Virus record (IMG/VR): IMGVR_UViG_3300035670_000287
Coordinates: 1-52,635 of that record
Strand: one strand, 5' to 3'
DNA: 52,635 nt
Origin: a virus
This document shows, in pieces, positions 7,638 through 47,187 of the stretch. Within the stretch, counting starts at the first letter, position 1, and each line of letters begins with the position of its first letter. Under the pieces are notes generated by a model. That model did not search any database and was not told where the DNA came from. It was given only the letters and a program-made list of their open reading frames with translations. The position numbers were made by a program, and so were the translations under genes.

Positions 7638-7831
7638 GTGGCTGGTTAGGGCTGATACTGCTAGTCACCAGCTACTTCTTTAAGGATAAATCCTTTTGGT
7701 GGCTACAACTGTTTGCTTGCTTCTTTCTGATAGTTCACGCCATCGACATTTCTGACCCAGTATATATCCTAGTGAACTCTATTATATTCTTTATTATTAT
7801 CTGGAGACTGTATGGTATACATAGCAGGTAA
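7634..7831 (+). CDS. Two-helix membrane protein, 65 aa
   Basis: GTG start overlapping the upstream TGA (GTGA). Two to three hydrophobic segments, rich in Phe, Ile and Trp, cover almost the whole chain. It overlaps the next gene by 20 bases. No family recognised; it could be a membrane-acting accessory such as a superinfection factor. Confidence 0.45.
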   Translation: MSGWLGLILLVTSYFFKDKSFWWLQLFACFFLIVHAIDISDPVYILVNSIIFFIIIWRLYGIHSR

Positions 7832-8105
7832 GATAAGTGCCGACACCCCCGAAGAAGAAGAAGCCAACCTCAAACGTTTCTACGAGATAGAGAAAGAGTT
7901 CCTAGATGAAGGACTCGATGTCCACAACCCCGCTAGGTATAAGAAGCGAGGCAAGGTTTGGGAGCATTATTTGGCGATAGACTCAATTTTTCTGGTACGA
8001 AATCAACCTGATATGTTTTTTCTTAAAGGATGGGAGGAATCCCTCGGTGCGAGGCTAGAACACGAGATAGCTAAAAATTTGAAGCTAAAAATCTCTTACG
8101 AATAA
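7812..8105 (+). CDS. DUF4406 / nucleoside 2-deoxyribosyltransferase-like protein
   Basis: 97 residues. The N-terminus MVYIAGKIS is the first strand and loop of the nucleoside-deoxyribosyltransferase-like fold. NPARY and the D at about residue 55 follow, and the C-terminal motif GWEESLGARLEHEIA is the family hallmark. DUF4406 proteins are common in phages and are thought to act on nucleotide or base metabolism. It ends 3 bases before a terminator stem. Confidence 0.7.
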   Translation: MVYIAGKISADTPEEEEANLKRFYEIEKEFLDEGLDVHNPARYKKRGKVWEHYLAIDSIFLVRNQPDMFFLKGWEESLGARLEHEIAKNLKLKISYE

Positions 8106-13191: not shown

Positions 13192-13418
13192 TTCTCTTTC
13201 CTTTCTTTTTTAGTAGTGGCTTTGTTTATCAGGCTCATACTGCCGAAGCAGGTTTTACATGGGCGCTTTCCACCCTTTTGCCAGACAGGAATAAACTTGG
13301 TCGGCTTTCCTCTTATTTGTTGGGCTTTATCGGTATCCCTTTCGAGAAGCTCGTAAACTTAGTCGAGCGCCAACTGAACTCGATACCCTATCCGATACCA
13401 CTTTTTAATGTTCTGTTC
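13188..13418 (-). pseudogene. Broken small gene with in-frame TAA
   Basis: One frame reads through protein-like sequence (KKWYRIGYRVQLALD), then TAA at 13359-13361, then VYELLERDTDKAQQIRG and a basic C-terminus with CKTC, ending in a TGA that overlaps the next start (ATGA). Neither half has an ATG/GTG start with a ribosome site. The natural reading is a recently inactivated gene of about 77 codons; stop read-through or a sequence error is also possible. Confidence 0.4.
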
Positions 13419-13449
13419 TCAAGAGAGAGAAAACTTATTTAACTTGTGA

Positions 13450-13477
13450 GCTAACCTTTAATTAATTATTTGTTAGC
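13450..13477. promoter_or_regulatory. Operator-like inverted repeat downstream of a promoter
   Basis: GCTAAC (13450-13455) and GTTAGC (13472-13477) flank an AT-rich palindrome-like centre, about 40-60 bases downstream of the -10 box of the - strand promoter at 13517-13545. Could be a repressor site or leader hairpin. Confidence 0.35.
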
Positions 13478-13516
13478 ACTTTCTCTCTCTTTTTCAAATT
13501 ACTTATTCACCCTCTC

Positions 13517-13545
13517 ATGCTACCACACTATTGCCCACTTGTCAA
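13517..13545 (-). promoter_or_regulatory. Early-type sigma70 promoter, - strand
   Basis: Read on the - strand: TTGACA (13545-13540), 17 bases, TAGCAT (13522-13517). Its spacer end ATAGTGTGG matches the promoter at 10164-10192. It drives the small genes from 13191 down to 11579. Confidence 0.75.
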
Positions 13546-13565
13546 TAAGATTATGACAGGTCAGG

Positions 13566-13639
13566 GGGGAAGCCACTTACTGCTTCCCCACAAGAGGTTA
13601 TCGAGCTTAATAGCTCGTAGCGAGAGGCAAGGCTTCCCC
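13566..13639. ncRNA. Structured non-coding element
   Basis: GGGGAAGC and GCTTCCCC form a tight hairpin (about 13568-13590), and a second GGCTTCCCC at 13631-13639 can compete for the same arm. CGAGC/GCTCG forms another at 13602-13617. There is no long frame and no T tract. I see a folded RNA or a regulatory DNA structure between a promoter and the first inverted-repeat unit, but cannot name a family. Confidence 0.4.
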
Positions 13640-13689
13640 ACCTTTTAATCCGAGAGTCGAACTCGGCTACCTCTCTCTATGAGCTATCA
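13608..13689 (-). repeat. Inverted-repeat unit 1 (non-coding; tRNA T-arm-like hairpin inside)
   Basis: Arms 13608-13627 and 13670-13689 are complementary at 17 of 20 positions, and at 18 of 20 as - strand RNA because one difference becomes a G.U pair. The interior holds, on the - strand, CCGAG-TTCGACT-CTCGG: a 5-bp stem with a perfect 7-base T-loop. No full tRNA can be folded around it. The next unit starts 4 bases later. Confidence 0.6.
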
Positions 13690-13693
13690 ATTA

Positions 13694-14059
13694 TTAGACA
13701 CCCATTTGGCAAGGTCAATTTACTTTTCTATTTACTCAACCCGAAATTATAATCCTCGTTCATATTTTCAGCTATCTCGTACCAATTAACCTCGTCTACG
13801 AAAGCACTTGCCCAACCACCAACGAGTCTATTGGTTTCATTTTCAAAACCATTTTGGTCAATAAAGTCCAAAGTATAGTTTTTAAGATAATCCGACAACC
13901 CTACAATATCGCCAAAAGACTCTTTTGCGTTGTCTATGCTATCGCCAAAACCATCAAACAACTCAAGATTTACTCGCCAAGTGGCGTAATTTGTCCAACC
14001 ATTATATTTTTCCATTTCTAACCTCTTTTACTTTCTGACCTCGCCAAATTGATGTCTAA
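13694..14059 (-). repeat. Inverted-repeat unit 2 around the DUF7249-like gene
   Basis: Arms 13694-13717 and 14036-14059 (24 bases) pair at 23 of 24 positions in - strand RNA, two of them G.U. They enclose exactly one gene (13728-14015). Spacers to the neighbouring units are 4 and 3 bases. Confidence 0.75.
13728..14015 (-). CDS. DUF7249-like conserved phage protein, 95 aa
   Basis: The N-terminus YNGWTNYATWRVNLE is the signature of a small phage/plasmid family (DUF7249 group), sometimes annotated as antirestriction-related; a mechanism has not been shown that I know of. The rest is acidic and helical, with repeated Asn/Asp and WASAFVDEVNWYEIA. It is the only gene in inverted-repeat unit 2, behind an AAGAGG ribosome site. 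Confidence 0.65.
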   Translation of the reverse strand: MEKYNGWTNYATWRVNLELFDGFGDSIDNAKESFGDIVGLSDYLKNYTLDFIDQNGFENETNRLVGGWASAFVDEVNWYEIAENMNEDYNFGLSK

Positions 14060-14098
14060 TCCCTATCACTTCACAAGTCGCAAGGCGTCATTTACTCT

Positions 14099-14284
14099 TT
14101 AATATTGTTCGTAAGTACTTTTTCTGATAGCTTCCGACTTCTTTAAACCCTCATTGATTACATATAAGTAAGCCAAAAAGAGAATAAAGCATATAATCAC
14201 AGCTAAGCAACTTCTCTTTGTCTGATTCAAGCGTTGTCGTCTCTTTCGTCTTTTGATAGCTTCTTTGGTGTGTTTTGTTAGCAT
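14099..14284 (-). CDS. Single-pass membrane protein, 61 aa
   Basis: A strongly basic N-terminus (KRRKRRQRLNQTKR) precedes one membrane helix (about residues 27-44) and a hydrophilic tail, predicting an N-in topology. Starts within the 3' end of the upstream zinc gene (7-base overlap). Second gene of inverted-repeat unit 3. Function unknown. Confidence 0.5.
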   Translation of the reverse strand: MLTKHTKEAIKRRKRRQRLNQTKRSCLAVIICFILFLAYLYVINEGLKKSEAIRKSTYEQY

Positions 14285-14484
14285 TTTATGACTTCCATTT
14301 CTCGATTAAACTCTACCAAGATAAATGGTTGCCCACACTCACAGATTAAATCTGTTTCGTCTGACGACATAAAATAATCTGCCTTGTTTGCTGAATATTC
14401 AACCATACAATTTTCACAAAACAAAACCTCTTTTGTCCTTGTTTTATCAAGTATTTGGTCTGATAGGTCTTTAATCTTTACCAT
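14278..14484 (-). CDS. Zinc-ribbon protein, 68 aa
   Basis: CENC (about residues 23-26) and CECG (about 49-52) form a four-Cys ribbon, with beta strands between. First gene of unit 3, with AGGGGG upstream of the start. Resembles other ribbons in this array but is not a copy of them. Confidence 0.5.
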   Translation of the reverse strand: MVKIKDLSDQILDKTRTKEVLFCENCMVEYSANKADYFMSSDETDLICECGQPFILVEFNREMEVIKC

Positions 14485-14534
14485 AGTATAACCCCCTGTT
14501 TTCTGACACCTCGCAACCTGTAAAGTGATAGTTT

Positions 14535-14753
14535 CACAAGCCCAAGTACAAGAGCAAGGTATTAATTCTTTATTCCTCTATCACTTTTAATTCTTTATTT
14601 AAGAACTTTGTAACTATTTCAAACCTATAACAACCTTTACAAATGTCTTGCCTCTCGCTTTCGTTGTTTGTATCGTCAACCTCGCCACATATTTTACATT
14701 TGAATAACATAATAACCTCTTTTCTAACCCTTGCCCTTGTATTTGGACTTGTG
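14535..14753 (-). repeat. Inverted-repeat unit 4 around a zinc-ribbon gene
   Basis: Arms 14535-14560 and 14727-14753 pair over about 25 positions with one A.C mismatch and two G.U pairs in - strand RNA. The unit encloses only the gene 14570-14710. Spacers to neighbours are 3 and 4 bases. The arms are related in sequence to those of unit 5. Confidence 0.75.
14570..14710 (-). CDS. Zinc-ribbon microprotein, 46 aa
   Basis: Start ATG after AAGAGG. CKICGE at residues 5-10 and CKGCY at 24-28 make a four-Cys zinc ribbon; the C-terminus is a Lys/Glu/Val helix. Sole gene of inverted-repeat unit 4. Function unknown. Confidence 0.55.
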   Translation of the reverse strand: MLFKCKICGEVDDTNNESERQDICKGCYRFEIVTKFLNKELKVIEE

Positions 14754-14757
14754 ATTA

Positions 14758-15021
14758 CACACTAGCAAGTATAAGAGCAAGGCGAAGTTAATTATTCTTT
14801 AAGCAGTTCTTATCTCGTATTCTCTCTCTATATACTCTCTAAACTTATTCTCGTCAAATCTATCATTTTTTGCTTTTAGTAAGTCACAGAAATCCTGTAT
14901 AATAGTTTCAACCTTGATACCTCTAACTCTCGCACAAGCCAAAATAGTAGCAATTAATACATAATCCTTTTTAGTCATTTCGATACTCGCTTTCTGCCTT
15001 GCCCTTGTATCTGCTAGTGTG
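14758..15021 (-). repeat. Inverted-repeat unit 5 around one small gene
   Basis: Arms 14758-14783 and 14996-15021 (26 bases) pair at 24 of 26 positions in - strand RNA including two G.U pairs. The unit encloses the gene 14799-14978. It is the unit nearest the start of this - strand transcript. Confidence 0.75.
14799..14978 (-). CDS. Conserved small phage protein, 59 aa
   Basis: MTKKDYVLIATILACA at the N-terminus and LLKAKNDRFDENKFREYIE at the C-terminus match a pattern common in small uncharacterised phage and plasmid proteins. All-helical. No ribosome site stronger than GAGTAT is seen. Sole gene of inverted-repeat unit 5. Confidence 0.55.
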   Translation of the reverse strand: MTKKDYVLIATILACARVRGIKVETIIQDFCDLLKAKNDRFDENKFREYIEREYEIRTA

Positions 15022-15091
15022 TTTTGTTAGATAAGCTCTTATACTGCCCTGAGAGTCATAGCTCTATGGCTGGTTTTTAGCTCTAACCTAT

Positions 15092-15120
15092 TTGTCAAGG
15101 TGCTTGATTTGTGCTATAAT
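15092..15120 (+). promoter_or_regulatory. Sigma70 promoter towards TerS
   Basis: TTGTCA (15092-15097), 17 bases, TATAAT (15115-15120). It faces the packaging genes and leaves a leader of about 125 bases that contains the two DnaA-type boxes. Confidence 0.65.
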
Positions 15121-15138
15121 TGATTTACTGATAATCTA

Positions 15139-15166
15139 AGTATAACACTACTTGACAAGTATACAA
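15139..15166 (-). promoter_or_regulatory. Possible - strand promoter for the inverted-repeat units
   Basis: Read on the - strand: TTGTAT (15166-15161), 16 bases, TATACT (15144-15139). Overlaps the divergent + promoter region; weaker than the other promoters. Confidence 0.35.
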
Positions 15167-15195
15167 GAAAATTAATTTGAAGCTAAAAATGACAC

Positions 15196-15250
15196 TTTTC
15201 CACAATTAGCCGAATAAGTGTTTTACAAAATGAAAGTGAGTTTTCCACAA
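15196..15250 (+). promoter_or_regulatory. Two TTTTCCACAA direct repeats (DnaA-box type)
   Basis: Exact 10-base repeats at 15196-15205 and 15241-15250. Both fit the relaxed DnaA consensus TTWTNCACA. The second ends two bases before the ATG at 15253, so it would also overlap the ribosome-binding region of that gene, and binding there could repress translation or transcription. Confidence 0.45.
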
Positions 15251-15252
15251 CC

Positions 15253-15765
15253 ATGAGTGAGTTAGAGCAAATAATCAAGAAAATACCCGATAAAAGAAAG
15301 TCCGCCCTACCAAAACACAAGAGAGCGGAAGTTATTCAAGAGTTAGCACAAGGCAAGAGCGTAAGAAAGACAGCAATTGACTTAGGTATAGCAAGAAAGA
15401 CAGCCGAAACTATAAGAATAGAGAATAAGCCACTAATAGCGGAAATACAAGAAAAGCAAGCAATTCAAGCGGTAGAGATAAAACAACGGCTATTGAATAA
15501 GACTTTAAACTTGTTAGATAGGAAACTAGACAGAATAGAGCAAGACGATAGCAAACTGGATTATATGAAACCACAAGAACTTACAAGTACCGCTAAAGAC
15601 TTGTTCAATATGTCACAAGTAGAGTTAGGGAAAGACACGACAGATTATACAAAGAAAGATATAGCAACCCTCACAAATGAGCTAAAGACAATAACATACG
15701 CTATAGAGGCTAATAACACTAGAGAGCTATTACAGCTTACATTTAACGATAAAGACGACAACTAG
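15253..15765 (+). CDS. Helix-turn-helix protein, candidate small terminase
   Basis: 170 residues. A helix-turn-helix of the resolvase/transposase type at about 22-50 (ELAQGKSVRKTAIDLGIARKT) is followed by a long central helix and a C-terminal acidic segment. DNA-recognition HTH plus helical oligomerisation region is the usual plan of small terminase subunits. It lies 1.8 kb ahead of the large terminase, separated by a non-coding region that could hold the packaging site. A replication or transcription regulator binding the nearby DnaA-like repeats is the main alternative. Confidence 0.5.
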   Translation: MSELEQIIKKIPDKRKSALPKHKRAEVIQELAQGKSVRKTAIDLGIARKTAETIRIENKPLIAEIQEKQAIQAVEIKQRLLNKTLNLLDRKLDRIEQDDSKLDYMKPQELTSTAKDLFNMSQVELGKDTTDYTKKDIATLTNELKTITYAIEANNTRELLQLTFNDKDDN

Positions 15766-16098: not shown

Positions 16099-16342
16099 TC
16101 TGAGAAGTTGTTTGAAAGTTTTCTCTCTTTCCTTCCTGCAGCTGCTGACTCTATCGGGTTCGACATTCCTCTAGTACCGATGACCTTGACCTTCACAGCG
16201 AGTGTCCAAAAATACTTTTCTTTGAGTTTTGGGTTCTATTTTTGTTAGGTTTTATATCCCGTTTATGCGTTGGGCATAGAGTTGAGATAGTTCGATAGAC
16301 TTCTTCTGGGTGTTGGCTCTATCGATTCGTCCCACCAACCAC
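16099..16342. other. Non-coding stretch, little recognisable
   Basis: No convincing frame on either strand. The only structure I see is an 8-bp inverted repeat TCGATAGA (16292-16299) / TCTATCGA (16318-16325). Confidence 0.4.
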
Positions 16343-16439
16343 TATCCTGACGATAGATATATACAGTATATAAAAAGCCGCCTGGTTTGTCAAGCGACGT
16401 ACCAAGCGGCCTATTTTGTTGAGTTGTTTCGTCAGGATA
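16343..16439. repeat. Nested inverted repeat / cruciform
   Basis: Outer arms TATCCTGACGA (16343-16353) and TCGTCAGGATA (16429-16439) are perfect 11-mers. Nested inside is GCCGC-TGGT (16377-16386) with ACCA-GCGGC (16401-16410), one mismatch, followed by CTATTTTGTT. It may be a terminator, an att/pac-type recognition site or an origin structure. Confidence 0.45.
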
Positions 16440-16591
16440 ATGCACAACCCATATTGAATTGTAGCTACATTATATCATATTATATAAGTATGTCAAGCAG
16501 AAAAGAGAGCCCTTTCTAAACGTCACCACATCAGGCCGTTTGCGTTCATTCAAAAGCTCTCGCCCTCTCACCTGAAATTAATATACCACAA

Positions 16592-17602: not shown

Positions 17603-19179
17603 AGAAGGCCAAACAACTCCAGCTACTAACCTTAGCGGAGACAGCAAAGAAAGACCTGTTCTTTTTGGCTCATGAAATCCTCGACTACAAGTTAATGACC
17701 GAATCTGTCCACCGCCCGCTAACGGCGGTGTTGCAGTCTCTGGTCGAACCTAACTCTAAATGGCTGGAGATGATACCCAAAGAGTCCACCCACTTCTCAG
17801 AGCGGGACAACGATATCTTTAACAACAACATCTCCATAGAGGACTTGAATAAAAAGTTTAGACTGATTCTGATGCCCCGTGGTACTTTTAAATCCACCAT
17901 CTCCACCATCTCCTTCCCGCTACAGCTGTTACTAATCAACCCAGATATAAGAATATTGATAGATTCAGAGACCTTTGATAAGTCACGGGCGTTTATGGCT
18001 GAGATTAGAGGCCACCTGGAATCCAATGAGAAGTACCGAGCCCTCTTTAAAGCCCTCCATGGCATCTACCCAGATGAGAGAAAGGGTGTCGATAAGTGGG
18101 GAGACACGGAAATCAACGTCGCCGCCCGTAAGAAGAAAGCCAAAGAACCTAATCTTAGTTGTTCTGGTGTTGGGGTAACCAAGGTAGGGATGCACTACGA
18201 TGTAGTGATGTCCGACGATTTACATTCCGAGAAGAATGTAACCAATAAAGAGCAGATACAACAGGTAATCGACCACTATAAGCTCAACCTCTCCCTACTG
18301 GAGCCGACAGGATTCATGACGGTTATCGGCACGAGGTGGGACTATCTCGACTTATACCAGTATATTATCGATAATGAACGCCACAGGTTCTGTGTTTACG
18401 CCCAACAAGCGGAAAAACCCGACGGAACTCTGTTATTCCCCGAAAGATTGACCAAACAATTCCTGACAGACCAGAGGATGTCGCAGGGCTCATCGATTTA
18501 TTCTATGCAGTACCAGAATTTACCGATAGATGACGAAACTGCCACCTTTAAATACTCCCAAATGCGTAAAGTAGACAACGATTGGGTCAAAAACAAGCCG
18601 ATTAACTGGTTTTTGATGTGCGACCCCGCTATTTCGCAGGCTTCAACCGCCGATGACACCGCTTTTGTGGTTGCTGGCTTCGATATGGAGCGAAATATCT
18701 ACGTCAAAGACATAATTTACGGCAAATTCATGCCATCAGAGATAGTAGACCAGATATTCTACCTCTATGAGATGCATAAACCGAAAATGGTCGGGGTAGA
18801 GAGCGTTGCTTTCCAGAAAACCCTGATATATTCCATCAATGACAAAATGAAAGAGCGAAACTGGGCATTTTCCATAAAAGAGATTAAAAGAAAGAACGCT
18901 CACTCTAAAGAAGACAGGATAAAATCTCTCCAACCCTATTATGAGAATGGCCGTGTTTTCCACCTTAGAACCTGCAAAAACATCGATGAATTGGAGTACC
19001 AACTCATACACTTCCCAAAAGGACGAAAAGATGATATAATAGATGCACTTGCTGACTTGTTGGAGATAGGTTTCCCCCCAGATAACCGCCAACGACACAA
19101 TACAGATGAAGACCGAGCACGAAAAAGGAAAATGTTTAAAATATTAAGCCAGCCGAGAAGTAAAATTACTGGTTACTAG
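17572..19179 (+). CDS. Terminase large subunit
   Basis: 535 residues. The N-terminal ATPase has a Walker A-type loop MPRGTFKST (101-109) and a Walker B DVVMSDD (210-216). The C-terminal RNase H-like nuclease has the acidic residues D351 (MCDPAIS), E in VGVESVAF and D487/D488/D491 (RKDDIIDAL). It pumps DNA into proheads and cuts the concatemer. Position directly ahead of the portal and the full length support an intact enzyme. Confidence 0.95.
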   Translation: MERQEIIEALEKAKQLQLLTLAETAKKDLFFLAHEILDYKLMTESVHRPLTAVLQSLVEPNSKWLEMIPKESTHFSERDNDIFNNNISIEDLNKKFRLILMPRGTFKSTISTISFPLQLLLINPDIRILIDSETFDKSRAFMAEIRGHLESNEKYRALFKALHGIYPDERKGVDKWGDTEINVAARKKKAKEPNLSCSGVGVTKVGMHYDVVMSDDLHSEKNVTNKEQIQQVIDHYKLNLSLLEPTGFMTVIGTRWDYLDLYQYIIDNERHRFCVYAQQAEKPDGTLLFPERLTKQFLTDQRMSQGSSIYSMQYQNLPIDDETATFKYSQMRKVDNDWVKNKPINWFLMCDPAISQASTADDTAFVVAGFDMERNIYVKDIIYGKFMPSEIVDQIFYLYEMHKPKMVGVESVAFQKTLIYSINDKMKERNWAFSIKEIKRKNAHSKEDRIKSLQPYYENGRVFHLRTCKNIDELEYQLIHFPKGRKDDIIDALADLLEIGFPPDNRQRHNTDEDRARKRKMFKILSQPRSKITGY

Positions 19180-24339: not shown

Positions 24340-24708
24340 GGGCTCGTTAGTACTGCAAGGACTAACTACTGTATGGACAATAGACCAAAATGTACAAATG
24401 AAGGATGTAATAATCCCGCAACCAAAAAAAGAACTAGAAAGGACGGAATCCCTGTTTATAGAAAACTATGTTCTGGTTGTCTGCGGAGAAAGTATGGCAT
24501 GCCTTCAAATTCAAAGGGTAGAGCAAAAGCGAAGTTACCAAACAAATGTATTATTTGTGGATGGGATAAAGCACCTTGCGATATTCATAGAATAAAATTT
24601 GGAAAAGATGGTGGTAAGTATACAAAAGGGAATGTTGTAAAAATATGTCCTAATTGCCACCGACAAATACATTTCGGTTCGTTGTCCATACAGTAACTCG
24701 CTGAGCCC
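24340..24708 (+). repeat. Perfect inverted repeat framing an HNH gene
   Basis: TACTGTATGGACAA (24367-24380) and TTGTCCATACAGTA (24682-24695) are perfect 14-mers that include the ATG and touch the stop of the HNH gene. Outside them GGGCTC (24340-24345) pairs with GAGCCC (24703-24708). Without the HNH gene the flanks would form one intergenic hairpin, so the gene appears to have entered its loop. In RNA the HNH start codon would be buried in the stem. Confidence 0.7.
24373..24696 (+). CDS. HNH homing endonuclease, 107 aa
   Basis: CNNPATKKR and CSGCLRRKYG form an N-terminal zinc finger. The C-terminal CIICGWDKAPCDIHRI, NVVKICPNCHRQIH is an HNH core with its two CxxC-type zinc pairs and the final His. 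No ribosome site precedes the ATG. It lies between the capsid and the mucin-tailed head protein, inside a perfect inverted repeat, as expected for a free-standing homing gene in a non-essential spacer. Confidence 0.8.
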   Translation: MDNRPKCTNEGCNNPATKKRTRKDGIPVYRKLCSGCLRRKYGMPSNSKGRAKAKLPNKCIICGWDKAPCDIHRIKFGKDGGKYTKGNVVKICPNCHRQIHFGSLSIQ

Positions 24709-40115: not shown

Positions 40116-40433
40116 ATGGAAGATTTTATTGTCAAAGAATCAAACATAGACACGAATGGTTTGTTCGCCAATCGTGATTATTTACCAGACGAACTGGTAA
40201 TGAGCTTTCAAGGTAACCCACCGAAGATGATTTACATAAATCATTCGTGTGAGCCTTCTTGCTATACTATTGAGCCAGTCAAGGACGACTACCAGACCCA
40301 TACCCTTCATGCTGGAAAATGGGGACTAAAGGAAGGCCAAGAGATTACTTATGACTACAGGCTTGGGCAAGACTTAGATTATTTTAACAATACTATCAGT
40401 GATAATTGTAACTGCGAGAAATGTCGTGGATAA
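40116..40433 (+). CDS. Minimal SET-domain protein lysine methyltransferase
   Basis: 105 residues, about the size of chlorovirus vSET. An N-terminal strand set (SNIDTNGLFANRDYLPDELV) is followed by INHSCEPSC (N42-H43-S44-C45), the SAM-binding NHSC motif. EGQEITYDY (I77-Y81) carries the catalytic Tyr, and NCNCEKCRG (C98, C100, C103) is a post-SET zinc cluster. SET enzymes methylate protein lysines with SAM. It overlaps the giant fibre gene by 8 bases, so the fibre or a host protein could be the substrate. No AGGAGG is visible; CAGGAACTCC lies at a distance of about 7 bases. Confidence 0.8.
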   Translation: MEDFIVKESNIDTNGLFANRDYLPDELVMSFQGNPPKMIYINHSCEPSCYTIEPVKDDYQTHTLHAGKWGLKEGQEITYDYRLGQDLDYFNNTISDNCNCEKCRG

Positions 40434-43400
40434 AACTTACAAAGTCATTGGTAACAGCATGTCGTCAGATAATATTGTCGATGGCGACTTAGTCACGGTC
40501 TCTAACCGTCAGCCAAAAGACGGAGATATCGTAGTTGCCGAGTGGAATGACGAATTTATTGTAAAAACCTATCGTGATTCAGCCCTATACTGTGGTGAGT
40601 ATTTATTTACAGACAGTGATTTTGTGGTTGTAGGTGTGGTGGATGAAGTTATTAAAGATAGGTCTAGTAGGTTTTATATAGAGAGCGTTCATGGTAAAGC
40701 GACAACTTCTACATCGTCAACCTCTAGCTCTACCTCTCAGTCTTTCAGTACCAGCTCCACCTCTACCTCTACCACCACAGCTCCTCCCACCGTGGCTCTC
40801 GGTTCTCCTGCCGATAATGCTACAATTTCTGACACTACGCCAGACCTAACGTTTACTGGCACATCCAACGGAGGAGCACAGGTTAAATACCAAGTGCAGG
40901 TGGCATCAACACCCTTTTTCGAAGTTCTAGATAGTTATAGCGACACTAGAGATTACGCCGTATCACTCAAGATTACAACTGGCGACACGGAGGCAGGTCA
41001 GTCATTCCACGCAGTAGGAACGCTGGGTAGCTGTAAATTCTATCTTGGAAAATGGGGGACAATTTCGGGGAATATCTATGCAAAGCTATATGCACTGTCT
41101 GGGGCTTATGGTGGCGGAGATGATGTCCCTACCGGTGCAGCCTTGGCAACATCAGACGCTCTCGATGTGTCAGATTTTACAACAACCATGACAGAAAAAA
41201 CATTTACATTTTCTGGAGCAAATCAATATGCGATGAATGGAGATTACGTAATCGCTGTATCTTCGTCTATCGGAGACGATAGTAATTATGTGAATATCGG
41301 CTCTGCCGTAACGACACCAACACATACAGGCAATCCCTGCACATATAAAAGCCCGACTTGGACGGCGTCAAATGTCCACGATTTTCTGTTTTCTGTTCTG
41401 TCAACAGGGGCAACGCCCCTCATCGACGCCCTCTCCACCAACCTGACAGGTTTCACTACCGACGCTGATGGTTTCTATAACTCAGGAGTAGAGACTACTT
41501 ATACGGTTCAATCTGCTCTCTCCGCAGGTACTTACTACTGGAGAGTTAGGGCAGCCGAATCTGCTGGTACTTGGGGGGCGTGGAGTCCAGGGGACTCTAC
41601 TTTAGGGTATGACCATTTTCATCTGGAGACAGCCACCACTTCTACAAGCAGCACCTCAAGCAGTACCTCAATTTCTACATCTTCTACAAGTTCCTCTACT
41701 TCAAGGTCTGTATCTACTAGCAGCACATCCTCTAGTACTAGCAGTTCTATTAGTACATCCAGCACCAGCTCTAGCACCTCTAGTTCAACTTCTGTTTCTA
41801 CCTCTAGTACTAGCAGCAGTACTTCAATATCTACTAGTTCTACCTCTCAATCAGAAACAACCTCAACTTCATCGACCAGCAGCAGTACCTCAATTTCGAC
41901 ATCCAGTACTTCCGAATCAACATCTTCATCAATTTCTACAAGCTCTACATCAGAGTCAACTTCCAGCTCAACTAGTTCTACTAGCTCTTCTACCTCAACA
42001 TCAATCTCAACATCCAGTACCTCATCGAGCACCTCTAGCTCTTCATCTTCATCTACTTCAACGACCACTGCTCCTCCAGGATGGTACAATGCCTCATGGC
42101 CATACAGATTTAAAGTAACCGTTTTAGCCTCTAAGGTAGATGCCGACCTGACAGATTTTCCTGTTTACTTTGACCTAAACGATGCCCCTGCAGGCTTCCA
42201 CACCTATTGTAATCAAACAGACGCCAGGGATATCAGGGTTACAACCTCAGACCAGCAGACCGAAGTCCCAAGAGAGGTGGTTTTCTATGACTCCGCTACC
42301 GACACTGGAGAACTTCACTTTAAGGGCAATATTGATGGAGACGACAATACTGATTTTTATGTTTACTATGGTAATGCCGATGCTACTGAGCCAGCCGAAG
42401 ATGCTACTTATGGCCGAGAGGCGACTTGGAATAGTAATTATAAGCTAGTCAAGCATTTAAACGATATTACCACATCGACTACACTTGATAGTACTTCTAG
42501 CGACCAGGATGGAACAAAGAAGGGTGCTGGCGAACCAGCCGTAGCTACCGACCTAATTGGCAAGTGCCAATCATTTGACGGGTCAGATGATTATATTTCT
42601 GGAACAAATGGGACAAGTTTAACAAGCACGGCCATTACAATTCAAGCGTGGGTCAATTTTACAGACTTTACCAAAGCAAACCCCAGAGTTATTGAAGTCA
42701 GAGATGGAACATATTCTGTTCAGATAATCCGAGACGGAGGTTCACAAAAGTTTGTTACCAAGCATAGTGAATGGCAGTCAGCTATATCGGGGACACAGTG
42801 GAACATTCCGTCTACTGGAACCGACTACATGATTCACGCCGTTTGGGATGCATCTAATGACACTACAGTCTTTTACTGTAATGGTGTCGCTCAGGAAGGT
42901 GCGGCTAATAATAACATCGGGGTCGGAAACCAGGCGAGTAAGTATTATATCGGTATGAGAAGTGACCTTGTCGACACATCACAGCTAAAGGGTGTCGTTG
43001 ACGAGGTTCGTCTTTCTACAACCGCCCTATCTTCCACATGGGTTTCTACTGAATATAATAACCAATCAGACCCAAGTGCATTTTATCAAGTTGGTACGGC
43101 TGAATCAGGGACCACTACTTCCACTTCCTCCACCAGCTCTTCTACATCACTCTCTACTTCCAGCACTAGTTCGAGCACCTCCAGTTCCACCTCTATCAGC
43201 ACTAGTTCTACTTCGAGCTCAACCAGTACAAGCATTTCTACTTCTTCAACCAGTAGCTCAACTTCTAGTTCTATCAGTACATCAACGTCTTCTACTAGTT
43301 CCAGTACCAGCTCCTCGACCTCCATAAGTACCTCCAGTACTTCTCAGTCTACATCTACCAGTATTTCAACATCGTCCACGTCCTCCTCTACCAGTAGTTC

Positions 43401-46400
43401 TACCTCTATTTCTACCAGCTCAACGTCTCAATCTACGAGTACGTCCCAATCAACCTCCACCTCTAGTACTTCACAATCTACCAGCACCTCTCAGAGTACG
43501 TCAACATCATCAACTAGCCAAAGTACCTCTACTTCAATCTCTACTTCATCGACTTCCCAAAGCACCAGCACGAGCCAGTCAACGTCAACCAGTTCTACTT
43601 CCCAATCGACTAGCACATCTCAATCTACAAGTACCAGTTCAACCTCGCAAAGTACTTCCACAAGTCAGAGCACATCTACATCCAGCACCTCACAAAGCAC
43701 TAGCACTTCAATAAGTACAAGCTCTACCTCACAGAGTACGAGTACAAGCATATCTACTTCCTCCACGTCTCAATCAACATCTACGTCTATCTCTACCTCA
43801 AGCACAAGTCAGTCGACAAGTACGTCTATTTCCACTTCCAGTACGTCACAGTCTACCAGCCAGTCTACATCCACCAGTATCTCGACTAGCAGTACCTCCA
43901 GTTCTACCTCACAGTCTACGACCTCATCTACCTCTACCTCCACGACGACTGTCCCCTGGTACTATGCCGATACTATTACAGTAAATACTGGCTCTATCAA
44001 CTCAGGGATAATAGATGATACTTACAGCGATAACGGCACAAGACTAGTCTTAAATGAAGTAACCCCTGCCGCTCCTGGATTTGACTATGACTTTATCTTT
44101 GGTACTGGCGGGCAAACAGTCCCTGACGGTATTTATAAGCTCACCTTTAATGGATACTATGATGGTAACCCCGCCCATAATGTAAAACTCCAACAGTATA
44201 AGTTTACTGCTCCTGCTGGGTGGGTTAATGTCACGGCCAACGCTCAGGACTTCCCAGATAATTCCAGTGACCAATCTTATGAGTTCCCACTACTATCTCC
44301 GACATCTGACTACATTAGTGGTGGAGAGATACGCTTAAAGATAATCCATACCTCTAACGGCTCGGCTGGACATTATATGAACATAGACTATATGAAGCTG
44401 GAGACCTACTTTACTACCTCTACTTCATCTACTTCTAGCTCCACATCTACCAGCTCCACAAGTAGCTCTACTTCAACCTCTGTATCTACCAGCACATCAT
44501 CCACTAGCTCTTCTACTTCCACTAGTATCAGCACTTCTTCTACCAGCTCCTCCACCAGCTCGTCTATCTCTACTTCTTCAACAAGCCAGAGTACTTCCAC
44601 CAGTCGCTCTACAAGTACCTCCTCGACATCACAGAGCACTTCTACGAGCATTTCTACCTCAAGTACCAGTCAGAGTACCTCCACGAGTCAATCCACTAGT
44701 ACCTCTAGTACTTCCCAGTCGACTAGCACTAGTCAGTCAACGAGCACTTCTTCAACTTCCAGCTCCACTTCTATATCTACAAGCTCTACTTCCCAGAGTA
44801 CATCTGTCTCTACTAGCTCAAGCACGTCTACCACGCTTTCTATGACCACTTCGACTAGTTCGACATCCTCGTCAACGTCTCAATCTACATCAACTTCGAC
44901 AACGATACCTCCCGCCTGCGTTGTTGACCAACAACAGACAACAGCCCTTGCCGATGCCTCGTACCAATGGCCAGTGGGTAGCGTTACTGGGTTGTGGGAA
45001 GAGGGGGGACAATCCTTTACCCCAAGCATAACAGCGAACCTTTGTTATGTTAACTTCGCATTTAGTAGAGACGGCAACCCTACCGACAATGTCGTCTGCC
45101 AGCTCTGGTCATCTGATTCTGGGGATACTCCTCAATCTCTTTTAGCAACGGCAGATAACTCTCATAACGTAACGTCCTTTCCTGTCGCCCCCAACTATGG
45201 GATTTATGGGTTTACCTTTACTGGGGCAAATTCTATCCAACTGCTTTCAGGGAGCAAGTATGCTTTCGTTATCAGTCGCACTGGGGGTGATGACGGAACC
45301 AATCATGTCCACCTTGTTGGTAGCGATACTGACACTTATTCACGGGGTAAAAGGATTAAAAAGGGGGTTACTTGGGCTGCCAGTTCTCTAAGCGACCTAT
45401 ACTTCAACGAACACTACGACAACACCACCACGACATCTACGTCGACATCATCGACTAGCACTTCGACTAGTCTATCTACCAGCTCGACAAGTTCGTCAAC
45501 GTCCCAAAGTACATCTGTCTCAACAAGCAGTACTAGCCAGAGTACAAGTAACAGCACTTCTAGTACCTCATCATCTACTTCGCAGAGTGTTTCCACCTCT
45601 AGTACAAGCCAGAGCACATCTACCAGCACGAGCATATCTACCAGCTCGACCTCACAGAGCACAAGCACTAGCGTATCTACATCTTCAACGTCACAGTCAA
45701 CCTCTAGCTCTATTAGCACTAGCAGTACGTCTTCTTCGACCTCAATCTCTACATCCGCATCCACCTCTTCAACCTCGTCTAGTACTTCTCAGTCAACCTC
45801 TATCTCTACTAGCTCCACCAGCTCTTCAACTTCCCAGTCCACATCTTCCTCTACATCTATATCTACCTCAAGCACCAGTAGCTCTACCACCCAGAGTTGG
45901 ACAACATCTACATCTAGTACGAGCAGTAGTACTTCTAGTACCTCAGAGAGCACTTCAACAAGCACATCAACATCCTTGAGCACATCTTCTACAAGCTCAA
46001 GCACAAGTTCATCAACTTCTACATCTACTACTACCGTCCCAGCAACATGCGTAATAGACCAAGAAAACACAACCTCTGGGTCAGGGGCTACTCTTACTGT
46101 TCCAAGATTCCAATCTTTTACGCCCTCTGTTAATGCTACTATTTGTAATATTGCTCTTTATATGTTTGGCGGCGGTACTTCTGTCGGAGATACAAGCGTT
46201 TCTATTTATACAGTATCTGGTGGATTGCCAAGCACGCTGATAGAAACATCCCCCTTTGTTCAAAATAATAATGGCATTGGGGCAAGCACAAGATGGATTA
46301 GTTTCCCGTTCTCATCAACTTCAGTTCTTTATTCTGGAGTCCTTTATGCCATAGTTATAGAGTCAAGCCTTCCAACATCAGCCGCTGGAGTTGCTGCCTC

Positions 46401-47187
46401 TTCTGGAGACACATATACTAGCGGGGTATCTGGTATTTATACCTTTGGGTCATGGCGGTTAGGGAGTGCGGGAGTTGACCTTACCTTTAAAGAATACTAC
46501 GAGAATACAACCCTCTTTACAACCTCAACTTCAAGTACTTCTTCTAGTACATCGAGTACTTCTAGCTCAACTTCTACATCGTCCACTTCGTCAAGCACAT
46601 CGGTTTCTATAAGCACCAGCTCCAGTACGACAATAAGCTGGACGACATCTACAAGCTCAACCAGTAGCTCAACCTCAACTAGCGTTAGTACATCCAGTAC
46701 CTCCCAGAGCACATCTACTTCTATATCAACGAGTTCAACAAGTTCATCCACGTCTACCAGTATCAGCACCAGCTCTACTAGTCAGTCAACTTCTACCAGT
46801 ATCTCCACGAGTTCGACCTCCAGTTCTACTTCTACGAGTATCTCGACATCCAGCACATCCAGCTCGACGTCTAGCTCAACTTCTCTCTCAACCAGCAGTA
46901 CTTCATCTAGTACCTCAACTTCGATTTCTACTTCAACGACAATCTCCACTTCCAGTACTTCTAGTTCCACTAGCTCTACGAGTACCTCAATCTCTACCTC
47001 CACCACCCTACCGCCAGACCCGAAGAAGGATAAGAAGCCTAAGTTCCACGTCGTTAGACAAAGAGAGATGCTTAACATTAAGACGTTCAACCCGAAGTTT
47101 TATGTAGTCAAAGAAAACAAGAGATTCAAGACCGTTAAAGATAATAAATCAGTAGACATTAATAACGATAAACCGAGGATGAGCTAA
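40426..47187 (+). CDS. Giant mucin-like fibre with N-terminal LexA/S24-like domain, 2253 aa
   Basis: Start GTG 40426 (a frame start at 40399 lies inside the SET gene). Residues 1-85 match the LexA/UmuD/S24 peptidase fold: GNSM with Ser11, DGDLVTV, GDIVVAEW, FIVKTY with Lys47; the 36-residue Ser-Lys spacing is as in LexA. Six Ser/Thr stalks follow (nt ~40702-40779, 41635-42069, 43111-43950, 44414-44906, 45424-46035, 46520-47010; about 980 residues), each ending STSTT(T/I/L)xP. Between them are a fibronectin-like region, a DUF2341 plus LamG-like lectin domain, and three 150-170-residue beta domains; the last two share a QSFTPS start. The C-terminus is Lys-rich with PKFHVVRQ / PKFYVVKE. Likely a host-binding, O-glycosylated tail or head fibre that may self-cleave. 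Confidence 0.8.
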   Translation: MDKTYKVIGNSMSSDNIVDGDLVTVSNRQPKDGDIVVAEWNDEFIVKTYRDSALYCGEYLFTDSDFVVVGVVDEVIKDRSSRFYIESVHGKATTSTSSTSSSTSQSFSTSSTSTSTTTAPPTVALGSPADNATISDTTPDLTFTGTSNGGAQVKYQVQVASTPFFEVLDSYSDTRDYAVSLKITTGDTEAGQSFHAVGTLGSCKFYLGKWGTISGNIYAKLYALSGAYGGGDDVPTGAALATSDALDVSDFTTTMTEKTFTFSGANQYAMNGDYVIAVSSSIGDDSNYVNIGSAVTTPTHTGNPCTYKSPTWTASNVHDFLFSVLSTGATPLIDALSTNLTGFTTDADGFYNSGVETTYTVQSALSAGTYYWRVRAAESAGTWGAWSPGDSTLGYDHFHLETATTSTSSTSSSTSISTSSTSSSTSRSVSTSSTSSSTSSSISTSSTSSSTSSSTSVSTSSTSSSTSISTSSTSQSETTSTSSTSSSTSISTSSTSESTSSSISTSSTSESTSSSTSSTSSSTSTSISTSSTSSSTSSSSSSSTSTTTAPPGWYNASWPYRFKVTVLASKVDADLTDFPVYFDLNDAPAGFHTYCNQTDARDIRVTTSDQQTEVPREVVFYDSATDTGELHFKGNIDGDDNTDFYVYYGNADATEPAEDATYGREATWNSNYKLVKHLNDITTSTTLDSTSSDQDGTKKGAGEPAVATDLIGKCQSFDGSDDYISGTNGTSLTSTAITIQAWVNFTDFTKANPRVIEVRDGTYSVQIIRDGGSQKFVTKHSEWQSAISGTQWNIPSTGTDYMIHAVWDASNDTTVFYCNGVAQEGAANNNIGVGNQASKYYIGMRSDLVDTSQLKGVVDEVRLSTTALSSTWVSTEYNNQSDPSAFYQVGTAESGTTTSTSSTSSSTSLSTSSTSSSTSSSTSISTSSTSSSTSTSISTSSTSSSTSSSISTSTSSTSSSTSSSTSISTSSTSQSTSTSISTSSTSSSTSSSTSISTSSTSQSTSTSQSTSTSSTSQSTSTSQSTSTSSTSQSTSTSISTSSTSQSTSTSQSTSTSSTSQSTSTSQSTSTSSTSQSTSTSQSTSTSSTSQSTSTSISTSSTSQSTSTSISTSSTSQSTSTSISTSSTSQSTSTSISTSSTSQSTSQSTSTSISTSSTSSSTSQSTTSSTSTSTTTVPWYYADTITVNTGSINSGIIDDTYSDNGTRLVLNEVTPAAPGFDYDFIFGTGGQTVPDGIYKLTFNGYYDGNPAHNVKLQQYKFTAPAGWVNVTANAQDFPDNSSDQSYEFPLLSPTSDYISGGEIRLKIIHTSNGSAGHYMNIDYMKLETYFTTSTSSTSSSTSTSSTSSSTSTSVSTSTSSTSSSTSTSISTSSTSSSTSSSISTSSTSQSTSTSRSTSTSSTSQSTSTSISTSSTSQSTSTSQSTSTSSTSQSTSTSQSTSTSSTSSSTSISTSSTSQSTSVSTSSSTSTTLSMTTSTSSTSSSTSQSTSTSTTIPPACVVDQQQTTALADASYQWPVGSVTGLWEEGGQSFTPSITANLCYVNFAFSRDGNPTDNVVCQLWSSDSGDTPQSLLATADNSHNVTSFPVAPNYGIYGFTFTGANSIQLLSGSKYAFVISRTGGDDGTNHVHLVGSDTDTYSRGKRIKKGVTWAASSLSDLYFNEHYDNTTTTSTSTSSTSTSTSLSTSSTSSSTSQSTSVSTSSTSQSTSNSTSSTSSSTSQSVSTSSTSQSTSTSTSISTSSTSQSTSTSVSTSSTSQSTSSSISTSSTSSSTSISTSASTSSTSSSTSQSTSISTSSTSSSTSQSTSSSTSISTSSTSSSTTQSWTTSTSSTSSSTSSTSESTSTSTSTSLSTSSTSSSTSSSTSTSTTTVPATCVIDQENTTSGSGATLTVPRFQSFTPSVNATICNIALYMFGGGTSVGDTSVSIYTVSGGLPSTLIETSPFVQNNNGIGASTRWISFPFSSTSVLYSGVLYAIVIESSLPTSAAGVAASSGDTYTSGVSGIYTFGSWRLGSAGVDLTFKEYYENTTLFTTSTSSTSSSTSSTSSSTSTSSTSSSTSVSISTSSSTTISWTTSTSSTSSSTSTSVSTSSTSQSTSTSISTSSTSSSTSTSISTSSTSQSTSTSISTSSTSSSTSTSISTSSTSSSTSSSTSLSTSSTSSSTSTSISTSTTISTSSTSSSTSSTSTSISTSTTLPPDPKKDKKPKFHVVRQREMLNIKTFNPKFYVVKENKRFKTVKDNKSVDINNDKPRMS

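Follow-up and report, generated by a model that had tools for sequence, protein, structure and literature searches.

Tandem units closed by gene-spanning helices in the predicted minus-strand RNA of an uncultivated tailed phage

What is the role of the complementary arms that enclose, one after another, a row of small genes on the − strand of a phage genome? The question is raised by virus record IMGVR_UViG_3300035670_000287, an uncultivated phage whose terminase, portal, and capsid genes identify it as tailed; all 52,635 bases of the record were analyzed and are referred to here as the window. Five units lie end to end on the − strand, each closed by a single helix of 21 to 28 bp (Table 1). 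A first-pass annotation had described this arrangement, and we confirmed its units, arms, and positions, with full helix extents running from 15022-14757 (u5) to 13690-13607 (u1). Its account of unit contents also held, with no gene in u1, one each in u5, u4, and u2, and two in u3, which form one translational unit because their ORFs overlap. The arms, given as 20 to 28 bases, span 21 to 28 bp at full helix extent, and the linkers, given as spacers of 3 to 4 bases, each measure 2 nt exactly (AA, AA, GG, and AA at the four junctions). The loop of u1 contains CCGAG-TTCGACT-CTCGG, a hairpin similar to the T-arm of a tRNA.

Table 1. Units of the array and flanking features, in window coordinates
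Feature	Position	Strand	Helix (bp)	5′ arm	3′ arm	Content or remark
Unit 5 (u5)	14757..15022	−	27	15022-14996	14783-14757	59-aa ORF, 14978-14799
Unit 4 (u4)	14534..14754	−	26	14754-14729	14559-14534	46-aa CxxC ORF, 14710-14570
Unit 3 (u3)	14063..14531	−	28	14531-14504	14090-14063	Overlapping ORFs of 68 aa (14484-14278) and 61 aa (14284-14099)
Unit 2 (u2)	13693..14060	−	25	14060-14036	13717-13693	95-aa DUF7249-like gene, 14015-13728
Unit 1 (u1)	13607..13690	−	21	13690-13670	13627-13607	No ORF
Hairpin GGGGAAGC...GCTTCCCC	13566..13589	−				3′ of the last unit; possible transcript end; no T tract
Promoter-like site TTGTCA-16-GATTAT	15131..15158	−				Upstream of unit 5; weak (9/12), a consensus match only, at chance rate

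The array is real and nonrandom. On a G.U-tolerant scale, its helices scored 30.0, 26.1, 24.4, 23.1, and 17.9 (23 to 30 for the four gene-bearing units), against a mean best score of 13.5 and a maximum of 18.6 in 200 dinucleotide shuffles of positions 13400-15400; with 17.9 against that maximum, u1 by itself thus falls inside the range of the best shuffles. Only one further helix scoring >19 was detected on the − strand of the 52.6-kb window, around an inserted HNH gene. The minimum-energy fold of the 1.5-kb − RNA contains exactly these five helices (mean pair probability, 0.88 to 0.99), without a competing long-range helix. Comparison of the folded − transcript with shuffled controls, which the first-pass annotation had suggested as a check, came out in its favor: the whole-region energy was −391.8 kcal/mol versus −310.1 ± 8.3 kcal/mol for 40 dinucleotide shuffles (z, −9.8), and the corresponding z for the + strand was −5.8. 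We rejected a + strand reading of the array, given that the arms pair there too but more weakly (−314 versus −418 kcal/mol) and that the genes are on the − strand. Rfam returned no match to a known structured RNA family above the gathering score.

Pairing is specific to each unit. By far the best partner of every 5′ arm is its own 3′ arm, with cognate duplexes at −25.7 to −45.9 kcal/mol and noncognate ones at −4.6 to −26.8 kcal/mol, mostly −5 to −20 kcal/mol. Units u2 to u5 have a core in common (GCRAGG in the 5′ arm and CCUUGC in the 3′ arm), and the rest of the arms differs among units. This core and similar leaders suggest, short of proof, that the arms of different units are homologous. 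When two units were superposed from the shared core on that assumption, 5 (u5/u4), 10 (u3/u4), 11 (u2/u4), and 10 (u2/u3) differences were two-sided and compensating; these 5 to 11 positions changed on both sides yet remained paired, against only 1 to 2 broken pairs per comparison. Such changes are the pattern expected if pairing, rather than sequence, were selected. They match pairing across the genes and so argue against the least probable of the readings that we considered, in which each 3′ arm would fold with the next 5′ arm into an intergenic hairpin, like a T7 RNase III site or a terminator. The core does permit local hairpins of this kind (−12.5 to −20.5 kcal/mol), but the gene-spanning cognate duplexes are much stronger and fill the ensemble, and our terminator scan found neither a classical terminator nor terminator-like sites at the array.

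Most differences between arms had been described as G.U pairs on the − RNA. The majority stands: among 127 pairs there are 12 G.U, 4 A.C, and 2 other mismatches, a G.U:A.C ratio of 12:4 (binomial p = 0.038) for the window alone and of 18:5 (p = 0.005) once two stems of a relative, described below, are added. In the helix 14063/14504, all five non-Watson-Crick positions are indeed G.U over 28 bp. The polarity is nevertheless weaker than had been stated, with u3 (5:0) as its main source and none in u5 (2:2) or u1 (1:1), and we regard it as real yet modest. The inverted repeat at the HNH gene at 24373-24696 provides a contrast, with 2 G.U and 5 A.C on the transcript.

The position of the arms relative to the genes is nearly constant. 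The 5′ arm ends 17, 18, 19, and 20 nt before the first ATG of u5, u4, u3, and u2, respectively, and the 3′ arm begins 15, 10, 8, and 10 nt past the last stop codon. These gaps are about as long as the stretch that a ribosome occupies during initiation or termination, so a gene could be translated with its helix still closed. With the arms paired, the computed openness of the start regions was 0.48 to 0.71, matching or exceeding that with the 3′ arms blocked and showing no consistent fall; it rose for the u4 and u3a start regions when the arms paired.

These values bear on whether the helices could act as a translational lock, in which end-to-end pairing silences a gene until an end of its mRNA is processed. 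5′-3′ pairing of a small-protein mRNA is what the array has in common with the known cases: the 5′ and 3′ UTRs of icaR pair in a duplex that is cut by RNase III (PMC3868564), and the aapA1 and hok mRNAs form a long-distance interaction that, between the 5′ and 3′ ends of aapA1, increases stability (PMC8167048). The array resembles these cases in that the ends of one bacterial mRNA are paired over the ORF. However, the start region is sequestered there, including the Shine-Dalgarno sequence of icaR and aapA1, whereas the array helices, 21 to 28 bp long and in tandem within an operon, end upstream and leave the ribosome-binding sites unsequestered. Neither an antisense RNA nor a signature of a toxin was detected. 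Given the 17- to 20-nt gap to the ATG and the openness of the start regions, we consider a lock of the icaR/aapA1 type improbable.

We looked for the array in relatives by searching viral and genome contigs with TerL, portal, and capsid (as single sequences and as alignments), an 897-aa protein, the 68-aa protein of u3, and the u2 protein. It was found in no record, and the searches yielded only distant kin, L051 and G001/L055. The L051 contig, whose capsid is 81% identical, stops just upstream of TerL, before the array region. G001/L055 shares 47% identity in both capsid and TerL, and G001 carries a − strand block of small genes at the equivalent place upstream of the terminase, with the arms absent. 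This contig (L058) also has two stems, 27 and 25 bp long and located at 7932-8101 and 17697-17833, with related, covarying arms, five two-sided changes, and a G.U:A.C ratio of 6:1. They are gene-free, enclosing noncoding stretches of 116 and 87 nt. By eye, the second can be folded much like a tRNA, with U8A9, a D arm, a T-arm with TTCGA, and an acceptor, but the space left is too small for a normal anticodon arm. Neither ARAGORN nor Rfam gave a credible match for u1 or for the L058 stems, and we set a tRNA or Rfam identity aside. Together with the ORF-free u1, the L058 stems are suggestive of the same stalk principle acting on RNAs with and without genes.

The arms are not a trait of the DUF7249 family, since 22 testable, distant u2 homologs from other phages lack arms altogether, their best flanking helix scoring 10.5, versus 24.4 at u2. 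Across 4128 ORFs from the window and from the viral loci retrieved, the arrangement occurred only in the units of the window, plus one case in L020 that we discarded: a stem (1983-2010/2198-2225) around a 42-aa ORF that results from a palindromic hairpin, TAGCAGCATAATTTACTATCTCATTCAATGA, directly repeated on both sides (1978-2211). This repeat lies close to a DUF7249 gene. A DNA search with a 17-mer from the u4 and u5 3′ arms hit 25 contigs, about the chance number by a rough estimate, and none of those scanned has such units. A spring-water phage (L062; MW202554.1) carries a long imperfect inverted repeat at 7773-8019, with arms of 52 to 73 nt and a loop of ∼100 nt, that overlaps an annotated small gene and may be MITE-like or a structured RNA.

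Cognate pairing, two-sided compensating changes, and placement of the arms at start and stop codons, along with the excess − strand folding energy and the covarying stems in a relative, provide good support for selection on within-unit pairing, as the first-pass annotation had proposed, and make the coding-strand RNA the most likely selected molecule. The same evidence bears on a DNA-level origin, in which mobile cassettes, stacked by repeated insertion or duplication, would carry the arms either as terminal inverted repeats or as recombination sites that fold in single-stranded DNA. The shared core and similar leaders hint at descent by duplication, the units abut, and small genes of this kind are accessory; moreover, G.U polarity alone does not decide the matter because single-stranded DNA also tolerates G.T pairs. 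The units nevertheless lack the identical ends and constant target duplication of a mobile element, sharing only the core, and the arms differ across units while complementarity is kept within each. Linkers vary (three AA and one GG), arm placement follows the start and stop codons closely, varying by only a few bases, and no transposase, integrase, or recombinase was recognized among the neighboring proteins scanned, many of which are unannotated. A plausible DNA-level case in the same genome, the HNH inverted repeat, lacks the G.U excess. With arm sequence unconserved among units, variable linkers, and arms that track the reading frames, cassette models fit poorly and we consider them very unlikely. 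The earlier suggestion of a cassette mechanism thus went unsupported, as did that of RNA-level packing, for which we obtained no evidence.

The HNH locus itself consists of a 32-nt imperfect inverted repeat (24364-24698, + strand) that overlaps the start and stop codons of a 107-aa HNH-like gene (24373-24696). It looks like an inserted free-standing homing endonuclease unit with terminal inverted repeats, given that the equivalent neighbors in L051 are not separated by any gene.

For the array, we propose an RNA-level device, to which we give about an even chance: closed-loop cistrons that an RNase III-type host enzyme trims into separate, end-protected mRNAs. The region would be transcribed as a single − strand unit, and the RNA would fold as closed loops strung directly one after another, a row of neighbors being expected if each gene or coupled pair is closed by its own arms. 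Each gene-bearing loop would present one translational unit, that is, a ribosome-binding site followed by one ORF or, in u3, by an overlapping pair. The shared core plus unit-specific outer sequence would give each helix an address, by which a 5′ arm could find its own 3′ arm and not that of its neighbor. At 21 to 28 bp, the helices closing the RNA reach the roughly two turns or more expected of an RNase III stalk, and those of 25 to 28 bp would act like the processing stalks of pre-rRNA. Cutting of the stalks by a double-strand-specific ribonuclease would presumably free short mRNAs whose residual stem guards both ends from exonucleases and leaves the ribosome-binding site free; the benefit may be stability or uncoupled expression. 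Neither this phage nor G001 has an RNase III gene, so the enzyme would need to be that of the host. The computation shows the helices and how specific they are, as well as the compensating changes, the arm geometry, and start sites that are predicted to be open. Against the proposal, the scan revealed no convincing − strand promoter and no classical terminator, none of the relatives found carries the array, the G.U polarity is modest, and a helix that must form across a translated ORF of 170 to 400 nt may do so slowly in the cell.

The main rival dispenses with cutting. RNase III is expected to cut near-perfect helices of 25 to 28 bp in almost every bacterium, and helices that stay uncut would therefore require protection; we rate this alternative as rather unlikely. 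It holds that the paired arms shield the cistron ends and prevent mispairing between neighbors, leaving modules on an intact mRNA. The cognate specificity of the arms is in keeping with it, as are ribosome-binding sites that the arms do not cover, start regions of u4 and u3a that open more upon pairing, and neighboring helices that could stack across the 2-nt linkers. Precedents include the ORF-wide structural modules of Escherichia coli operons (PMC5318159) and the stability that the 5′-3′ interaction confers on AapA1 mRNA (PMC8167048).

Each ingredient of the trimmed-loop reading is known from other systems. RNase III processing stalks of pre-16S and pre-23S rRNA are long helices that close a large loop, and the array resembles them in that a long helix closes a loop containing a functional RNA and the units follow serially on one transcript. 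Here, though, the loops hold mRNAs with their ribosome-binding sites, each stalk has a specific sequence, the linkers are 2 nt, and cleavage is putative. The early mRNA of phage T7 is, like the proposed array transcript, a polycistronic phage RNA in which double-stranded elements separate small genes, but its RNase III sites are local hairpins confined to the intergenic regions, whereas the array helices span the genes. Pairing of 5′ and 3′ UTRs provides a further precedent (PMC3868564, PMC8167048). In E. coli operons each ORF forms its own folding domain (PMC5318159), as does every operon ORF here, although those modules are a statistical trait of the ORF bodies, whereas the array domains are closed by dedicated noncoding arms. 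PeSL cassettes of T4-like phages, as summarized secondhand (Arbiol 2010 and Comeau 2014, via PMC4503421), are compact intergenic promoter-terminator elements. Like morons, they are described as flanking small accessory phage genes with stem-forming elements; they are not paired arms that enclose a gene, and the array junctions lack a convincing promoter or terminator, so that the units do not each carry their own.

In the open-access literature that we searched, we found no description of a phage operon with gene-closing address helices arrayed in tandem. We tentatively suggest, with somewhat more doubt than conviction, a new operon organization, in which tandem closed loops, each with its own address helix and a free ribosome-binding site, are either cut apart into individual mRNAs with closed ends or maintained as such, and in which the lineage also applies stalks to noncoding RNAs. 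Single regulated mRNAs are known whose ends pair across the gene; in this phage operon the arrangement recurs four times, or five with the noncoding unit, and its geometry is nearly constant. Should the loops indeed form and undergo processing, they would offer a compact route from one transcript to several stable, separately controlled messages and, if this is true, a ready-made part for stabilizing mRNAs in bacteria.

The promoter scan of the array region detected no convincing − strand promoter, its best match (9/12) being at chance level. Two further structures lie outside the array. Just past its end, at 13414-13499, a 12- to 13-bp stem (AAGAGAGAGAAA/TTTCTCTCTCTT) with an inner hairpin (GAGCTAAC/GTTAGC) is possibly a structured leader or a bidirectional terminator. 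At 16340-16442, an outer stem of 11 to 14 bp (CATTATCCTGACGA/TCGTCAGGATAGTG) encloses a G+C-rich hairpin that resembles a terminator and has T residues after it. Farther along the + strand, a 2262-aa ORF (40399-47187), most of which has no family match, resembles UmuD/LexA S24 peptidases over its first 60 residues.
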